The notes beneath the pieces were generated by a model. That model saw only the letters and a list, made by a program, of their open reading frames with translations, was not told the DNA's origin and did not search any database. A program made the position numbers and the translations under genes. Shown in pieces: positions 10,475 through 60,255 of a stretch of DNA of 64,000 bases; the stretch's first letter is position 1, and every line of letters begins with the position of its first letter. The stretch is from Nitrospira sp. CG24C (GTDB taxonomy: Bacteria > Nitrospirota > Nitrospiria > Nitrospirales > Nitrospiraceae), in the NCBI GenBank assembly GCA_002869885.2, contig NEWR02000018.1:62063-126062 (forward strand). Reading direction: 5' to 3'.

Positions 10475-10503
10475 CGGTAGCGGGCGGAACAGGAGATGGT
10501 TGA

Positions 10504-10570
10504 TTTGGTCTATCTGGTCTGTCTGGTTCAACCAAACAAACGAGACAGACCAAACAAACCAAATGAACGA
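10504..10570. repeat. 9-bp-period palindrome between convergent genes
   Basis: The left half repeats GGTCTATCT and GGTCTGTCT. The right half is its imperfect reverse complement (GAGACAGACCAAACAAACC), so the transcript can fold from either strand. It lies between the converging response regulator and murU genes and could act as a bidirectional terminator, although no long U-tract follows. Relatives are at 41108-41196 and 59838-59939, with partial copies near 19200 and 60180. Confidence 0.7.
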
Positions 10571-12566: not shown

Positions 12567-12868
12567 GGAAGGGTCGTCAGGGCAACTCCCGTGCTCCCGG
12601 AACAGAAGAAGGGATGGAGCCTGATGATCTTCTGTGCTCGCGCAACGCGCGGCTTAAGAAAGCCCTCGTTGGACGCGCGCAGTGGAAGATCAATCAGGCT
12701 GATGATCTTCTGTGCTCGCGCAACGCGCGGCTTAAGAAAGCCCTCGTTGGACGCGCGCAGTGGAAGATCAATCAGCCTCCATCCCTGGAGAGACAACGAG
12801 CGAGCTTGGAGGGATCATCTGTAATCTCGCTCGATGGCCGCAGTGGGAGTCACCCTAACGGCCCTTCC
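12567..12868. repeat. B-type palindromic module with A-type modules inside its loop
   Basis: The outer arms 12567-12590 and 12845-12868 are reverse complements at about 20 of 24 positions. Next to them lie the split halves of a shared core (GTGCTCCCGGAAC on the left, CTCGCTCGATGGCCGCA on the right). Between the halves sits an A-type palindrome whose arms are GGGATGGAGCCTGATGATC and GATCAATCAGCCTCCATCCC, itself tandemly duplicated. No credible gene is present; open frames here are translations of the repeat. Confidence 0.8.
12621..12776. repeat. 78-bp tandem duplication of an A-type core hairpin
   Basis: Two copies, 12621-12698 and 12699-12776, are identical except for the last base. Each holds the A arm, both core halves and a GGCTTAAGAAAGCC inner hairpin. 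Near-identity implies a recent duplication. Confidence 0.9.
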
Positions 12869-41107: not shown

Positions 41108-41196
41108 CTGTCTTGCTCATTTGGTCTGTCTGTCCATCTAGTCTGTCTAGTTCATCTGGTTAATTTCTTTCAACCAAACAGACGAGACAGACCGAA
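41108..41196. repeat. 9-bp-period palindrome near tRNA-Glu
   Basis: Five units of the GGTCTGTCT/GTCTGTCTA kind precede a reverse-complement arm (GACGAGACAGACCGAAC). It lies between the cytochrome c start and the tRNA gene, downstream of the tRNA in the sense of transcription. The rest of the 41080-41300 gap holds nothing else recognised. Confidence 0.7.
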
Positions 41197-59735: not shown

Positions 59736-59796
59736 GAGCACCCTGGTACAAAAACTTGAGACAACGAGGCAAGTCTACACCGTCAGCAGATAAAAG

Positions 59797-59965
59797 TGGA
59801 TGGGCCTGATAATCTTCTGTGCTCGCGCAACGCGCCCGGGTTCGTCTGTCTGGTTGGCTGGTCTTTCTGGTCTGTCTGGTTCTTCTGGATGAATTTCAGG
59901 TCCGACCAACCAGATAGACGAGATAGACCAGATGGACCAGCCTTCGTTGGACGGCCGCAGTGGGA
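59797..59965. repeat. A-type core interrupted by the 9-bp-period palindrome
   Basis: The left A arm and left core (GCCTGATAATCTTCTGTGCT, then CGCGCAACGCGCC) end at 59837. A complete 9-bp-period palindrome follows (59838-59939; TCTGGTCTGTCTGGTTC on the left, ACCAGATAGACGAGATAGAC on the right). The right core CCTTCGTTGGACGGCCGCAG resumes at 59941. The closing A arm is absent. Confidence 0.8.
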
Positions 59966-60029
59966 ACAACAGGGGCGCCATTCCATGAGAGAAATAGCGA
60001 GCTAGCTTGGAATGATCATTGATTCTATG

Positions 60030-60105: not shown

Positions 60106-60223
60106 GCACTGCGAAGCGTGCGATTCTACCACTGACGCTCGACCTGTGACTAGACCGAAGCATACGAAGAACGTTATTTGGTTCATTTGGTTGAAGAAGC
60201 CCAGCCTGCCCGCCAGCTCTGGA

Positions 60224-60255
60224 CGTTTTACGTTTCACGTCTCACGTTTAACGAC

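Follow-up and report, generated by a model that had tools for sequence, protein, structure and literature searches.

In the 64,000-nucleotide stretch of Nitrospira sp. CG24C DNA analysed here (the window), a palindrome with a 9-bp period, termed B, lies inside a copy of a second palindromic repeat, termed A, in the interval between an XRE gene and tRNA-Lys. The locus raises the question of how one repeat family came to occupy the loop of another. The first-pass annotation had offered two answers, insertion targeted to the loop of a folded single strand during replication, or growth of the loop by duplication. The analysis drew on genome stretches around matches.

Architecture of the composite in the window

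The nesting itself is borne out, with the two halves of the A core separated by 109 bp that hold B (Table 1). B is built on the 9-bp-period unit GTCTGTCTG, and its inverted arms (59842-59857 and 59906-59921) are 94% complementary. The left-half motif of A occurs six times in the window, compared with 0.00 expected from shuffles. In the CG24C genome there are 99 matches to the left half of the core, with up to three mismatches, and 94 to the right half. The halves lie 15-16 nt apart in 52 copies, the intervening sequence usually being CGGCCTCAGAAGGCCC (a short hairpin; the apical hairpin is of 16 nt), whereas in seven complete copies B spaces them by 109, 118 or 127 bp. Together with the enrichment of the motif, these spacings place B exactly at the apical-loop position, far beyond chance. 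The insertion point first proposed is therefore right as to its apical position and wrong as to an insertion inside the hairpin, since the short hairpin has been replaced by B.

Table 1. Features of the A-B composite, in window coordinates.
Feature	Position	Strand	Basis
Left outer arm of A, type I, TGGATGGGCCTGATAATCTTCTG	59797..59819	+	Common to syntenic orthologue L039; type I arms recur across the CG24C genome
Left half of conserved A core, TGCTCGCGCAACGCG	59820..59834	+	Genome-wide matches; invariant columns in 40-element alignment
Left junction CCCGGGT, composite form CNCGGGY	59835..59841	+	Nested-B alignment
B palindrome, 9-bp period, replacing the short apical hairpin	59842..59941	.	Inverted repeat; 61 usable composites; fold
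Right core half, TCGTTGGACGGCCGCAG, with switch from A type to D type inside it (GACG/GCCGCAG)	59944..59960	+	Pattern matches; comparison with L039
Right outer arm, D type, TGGGAACAACAGGGGCGCCATTCCATG, not pairing with the left arm	59961..59987	+	Arm energy -18.0 kcal/mol; homologous right part in L039
Whole element, covariance model R1, with B as an insertion	59794..59992	+	33.9 bits, E 3.9e-7

The window copy is a chimera with non-pairing arms. Beyond the core its right side, GCAGTGGGAACAACAGGGGCGCCATTCC, belongs to another subfamily and is unpaired with the left arm, giving an arm energy of -18.0 compared with a median of -37.4 in short-hairpin copies. Its fold (z of -4.0 as RNA and -2.9 as DNA) is weaker than that of an intact composite, L094, which as RNA forms one long hairpin with a z of -6.5. 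The order of the flanks is matched in an independent genome, RSF3, at the syntenic orthologue L039.

Other repeats are also present in the window. Free-standing B-like palindromes with the 9-bp unit lie outside any A at 10499-10568 and 41120-41195, and a tandem pair of 78-bp A elements, 99% identical, occupies 12618-12773. Beside tRNA-Lys, at 60220-60255, is a acgttttacgtttcacgtctcacgttt stretch similar to GTGAAACGTGAAAG-like repeat units; a repeat family with GTGAAACGTGAAAG-like units also fills the atpD-atpC spacer in species that have no A there (L230-L235).

The orthologous XRE/tRNA-Lys locus

A close relative of the XRE gene is found in 14 other genomes, although within the fetched stretches tRNA-Lys and purA adjoin it only in RSF3 (L039/L138). 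At L039 the left half of A is present and B is absent, with a loop region resembling a degenerate short hairpin. L039 and the window copy have the same D-type half as their right part, so that in RSF3 too the two flanking halves do not make up one continuous module. An intact short-hairpin A holds the same position on the XRE side in a more distant relative (L049/L147), without an adjoining tRNA-Lys. The empty A-type module that had been anticipated in relatives thus exists as an A without B, but no contiguous A with this right half was found.

A is a structured family with copy-specific arms

Model R1 matched all 37 genomes of the family and three genomes of a second family (1-3 matches each), with no match in the remaining 21 genomes searched; in CG24C there are at least 64 matches. 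The 63 A elements of CG24C that were compared form 14 clusters by their arms, of which eleven are single copies, and the pairing of their arms averages -35.4 in cis compared with -21.1 in trans. In an alignment of 40 elements 89.2% of cells are paired and 18 of 25 pairs have changes on both sides. Two-sided changes number 221, compared with 83 in shuffles and 28-91 in slid controls, of which the slid controls carry more weight because related sequences inflate shuffle-based counts. A is a structured nucleic acid with strong covariation and, as the wider finding, its core carries copy-specific arms that still pair in cis.

The orthologous sucC-sucD and atpD-atpC spacers contain A in most species, with arms that differ between clades and still pair; a bare, core-less hairpin with those arms was sought at both spacers and was not found. 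At the atpD-atpC spacer of one genome (L227, G019) the core of A runs in the opposite orientation to that in other species, yet the arms on either side, GTCGGCGGG..GCTC and GAGCACCCGCCGAC, still pair and resemble the arms of related species. At L064 in CG24C an A lies between GCAGGATGCTGAAAA and TTTTGAGCATCCTGC, and hence inside the loop of another palindromic repeat.

By a crude open-reading-frame rule, 20 elements have a sense-direction stop codon no more than 40 bp from the left arm, compared with four in which one lies antisense beside the right arm. From its position, strand bias and structure A would, if it has a function, most likely serve as a hairpin in the mRNA immediately 3′ of genes.

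A common junction and a single B lineage in the composites

The 169-bp query found about ten composite places in the CG24C genome, some of them incomplete, and matched 34 of the 61 genomes searched, all of one family. From the fetched loci 61 usable composites were obtained, representing 22 Nitrospiraceae genomes. Their left junction reads CNCGGGYT-CGTCTGTCTGG and their right junction, with some variation, CCAGCAT or CCAGCCT ahead of TCGTTGG. The distance among nested B copies averages 0.189, whereas to three free-standing copies it is 0.317 or more; the composites thus have one junction and one B lineage, distinct from these three copies, and free-standing B is abundant. Given the shared junctions and the closer mutual relationship of nested B, a single founding fusion is the simplest reading.

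Loop length is 1 mod 9 in 50 of the 61 composites (91, 100, 109, 118, 127, 154 and 172). A reversed-pattern control for the 9-bp unit was uninformative, the pattern being mirror-symmetric. Three composites (L291 and L298 in G011 and G003, and L029 in G012) have two B-like segments in tandem within the loop. At L070, L109, L092 and L112 of CG24C a third class of loop (about CTCGCTCGGGCTAATGGCACGTCTCGGCGTGCC...) stands in place of the short hairpin and of part of the right half; an orthologue-like locus of L070 in G017 (L016), with a matching left flank, has B instead.

The arms of composites are less well matched than those of short-hairpin copies. At the core base pair of columns 36-64, 62 of 63 short-hairpin copies are concordant compared with 45 of 61 composites (Fisher p 4e-5), and the median energy of the arm duplex is -37.4 kcal/mol in the former and -28.1 kcal/mol in the latter, with random pairs of composite arms at -22.9. 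Lower concordance and weaker energies both indicate that B goes with mismatched arms. Assembly error may add to this mixing, since most of the genomes are MAGs.

The loop of A is exchangeable in place

The same A carries, depending on the species, either the short hairpin or B as its loop at each of two orthologous sites, in agreement with the proposal that the apical loop is the site of changing content. The first, downstream of one gene, is matched in 21 genomes. With the same arms (about GGTGAGGGCGGCCGAGCCAATCCTC and GAGGATCGGCTCGGCCGCCCTCAC) it carries the short hairpin in CG24C, G030, G008, G023 and G003 and B in G020, G024 and G013, through either gain or loss of B; in G031 and G015 another A lies within the loop region. 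Downstream of zwf, G001 has the short hairpin whereas G003 and G011 have B, gained or lost, the core and inner arms being otherwise near-identical.

In the nested-B tree, which has few columns and many open forks, the B copies from the first site do not cluster together. The copy from G013 groups with L069 of CG24C, that from G024 with another G024 locus, and that from G020 with L093 of CG24C and with G028. Either B arrived at this site more than once or an older B was overwritten from elsewhere, and both amount to copying of loops. In G024 a derived core variant, TTCGTGGA, occurs only in A elements of the two loci grouped by the tree, which have unlike arms; this is the trace expected if a loop were copied along with the edge of the core. 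Four further candidate orthologous pairs (L182/L064, L171/L103, L176/L136 and L191/L081) were set aside as evidence of loop exchange, as their arms differ as well as their loops.

Origin of the composite

The feature in the window is one A-B composite. B is probably a cassette for the loop, one that ectopic recombination or template switching would have spread from one A element to another. A single early fusion would have placed B in the loop of an A element. Copies of the cassette may then have entered, or overwritten, the loops of further A elements, through ectopic recombination or through template switching during replication, with the core halves that flank the loop guiding the copying. 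B's own homology, of more than 100 bp, would let composites recombine and so mix their arms. The right side of the window composite was presumably joined later to the neighbouring D-type half. The syntenic orthologue without B counts in favour of such a cassette. Against recombination, the guiding core halves are only about 15-17 bp each, which is short for the classical homologous process.

Were B a mobile element that jumped repeatedly and independently into exposed hairpin loops of A, for instance in single-stranded DNA at the replication fork, it might well be found in the apical loops of A elements diverse in their arms and core types, have different nearest relatives at a single site and be abundant outside A, all of which is seen. 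Such a history is nonetheless unlikely, because the junction common to the composites is absent from both free-standing B and short-hairpin A, the nested copies are distinct from the free-standing ones compared, and the short hairpin is missing, so that plain insertion is not enough. Insertion of B at this particular locus, as first suggested, is not supported; the composite is an old, genus-wide cassette with shared junctions, in which the hairpin was replaced and not interrupted.

That the whole composite is mobile in the manner of a MITE, its loop never being exchanged, seems distinctly unlikely. Type I arms together with B are common to L069, L087, L094 and L132 of CG24C, and copying of whole units therefore does occur, but as the sole process it is contradicted by the two orthologous sites, where elements with the same arms occur both with B and lacking it, unless the sites are misassembled; near-identical B inside elements with unlike arms also speaks against it. 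It is highly improbable that the short hairpin grew into B as its loop sequence was duplicated. The steps of 9 bp between composite loops show that duplication acts, but within B, and to that extent only does the growth proposed in the first-pass annotation stand. The short hairpin, GGCCTCAGAAGGCC, has no resemblance to the 9-bp unit, and its outgrowth into B is contradicted by the presence of B outside A and by the missing intermediates, there being no loops between the hairpins of 15-18 nt and about 83 nt among the composites.

If copying of a loop cassette is the right reading, hairpin repeats evolve as modules, with arms, core and loop changing separately and loops being copied between distant loci. 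It also carries a caution, that finding one repeat nested in another does not in itself mean that an insertion took place at that locus. With many orthologous comparisons in one genus, the A family offers a test bed for the origin of hairpins and of compensatory changes by template switching or selection.

Comparison with known repeat systems

At the gathering score Rfam returned only tRNAs in the window, and at a relaxed E-value it gave no plausible hit over A at four A loci; no description of this repeat in Nitrospira was found in the open-access literature. An integron attC site (GTTRRRY) was rejected because RRR is not conserved after GTT, the column that follows alternating between G and C (21 and 19 of 40; columns 36-64). 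With regard to a MITE, which would have terminal inverted repeats and a target-site duplication, the arms of A are inverted repeats that differ between copies, and no clean filled/empty pair with a duplication was found at the atpD-atpC spacer or in the comparison with L039. A might be a new kind of non-autonomous element, in which a fixed core gains arms specific to its host through inverted duplication (template switching) and swaps apical loops with other palindromes, leaving palindromes nested one in another throughout the genome; we regard this as doubtful.

REP, BIME and REPIN sequences are short multi-copy intergenic palindromes, often arrayed and sometimes in operons or just 3′ of genes, and REP hairpins can stabilise mRNA (PMC12306157). 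A is likewise a short intergenic palindrome of high copy number, but differs in its conserved core, in arms that vary by copy and in the exchange of its loop. No RAYT (TnpA-REP) gene was seen beside A. The CG24C genome, 94% complete so that another could be missing, has a single Y1_Tnp match, with no A core in the surrounding 3.3-kb locus; the gene (L038, C20:7882-8205) has an open frame of 373 aa and adjoins RHS/YD-repeat-like sequence.

ERIC-type enterobacterial repeats are long single stem-loops of about 100-130 bp, with RNA-level effects reported for the Yersinia ERIC (PMC2267715). A is also a long single stem-loop, but its arms are copy-specific, its lineage is Nitrospiraceae and its sequence is, to the extent of the comparison (nothing matched in Rfam or in the literature), unrelated. 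The arm homogenisation, multi-base compensatory changes and spacer inversion of template-switch hairpins (PMC8794818, PMC8604942) are all seen in A. Template switching is, however, a mutation process and not a repeat family, and alone it does not bring B from another locus. The BOX elements of Streptococcus pneumoniae have two constant ends around a variable middle, which is a tandem array. Set against BOX by description, A has the same arrangement of constant ends and variable middle, but what fills its middle is a short hairpin in some copies and an unrelated palindrome in others.
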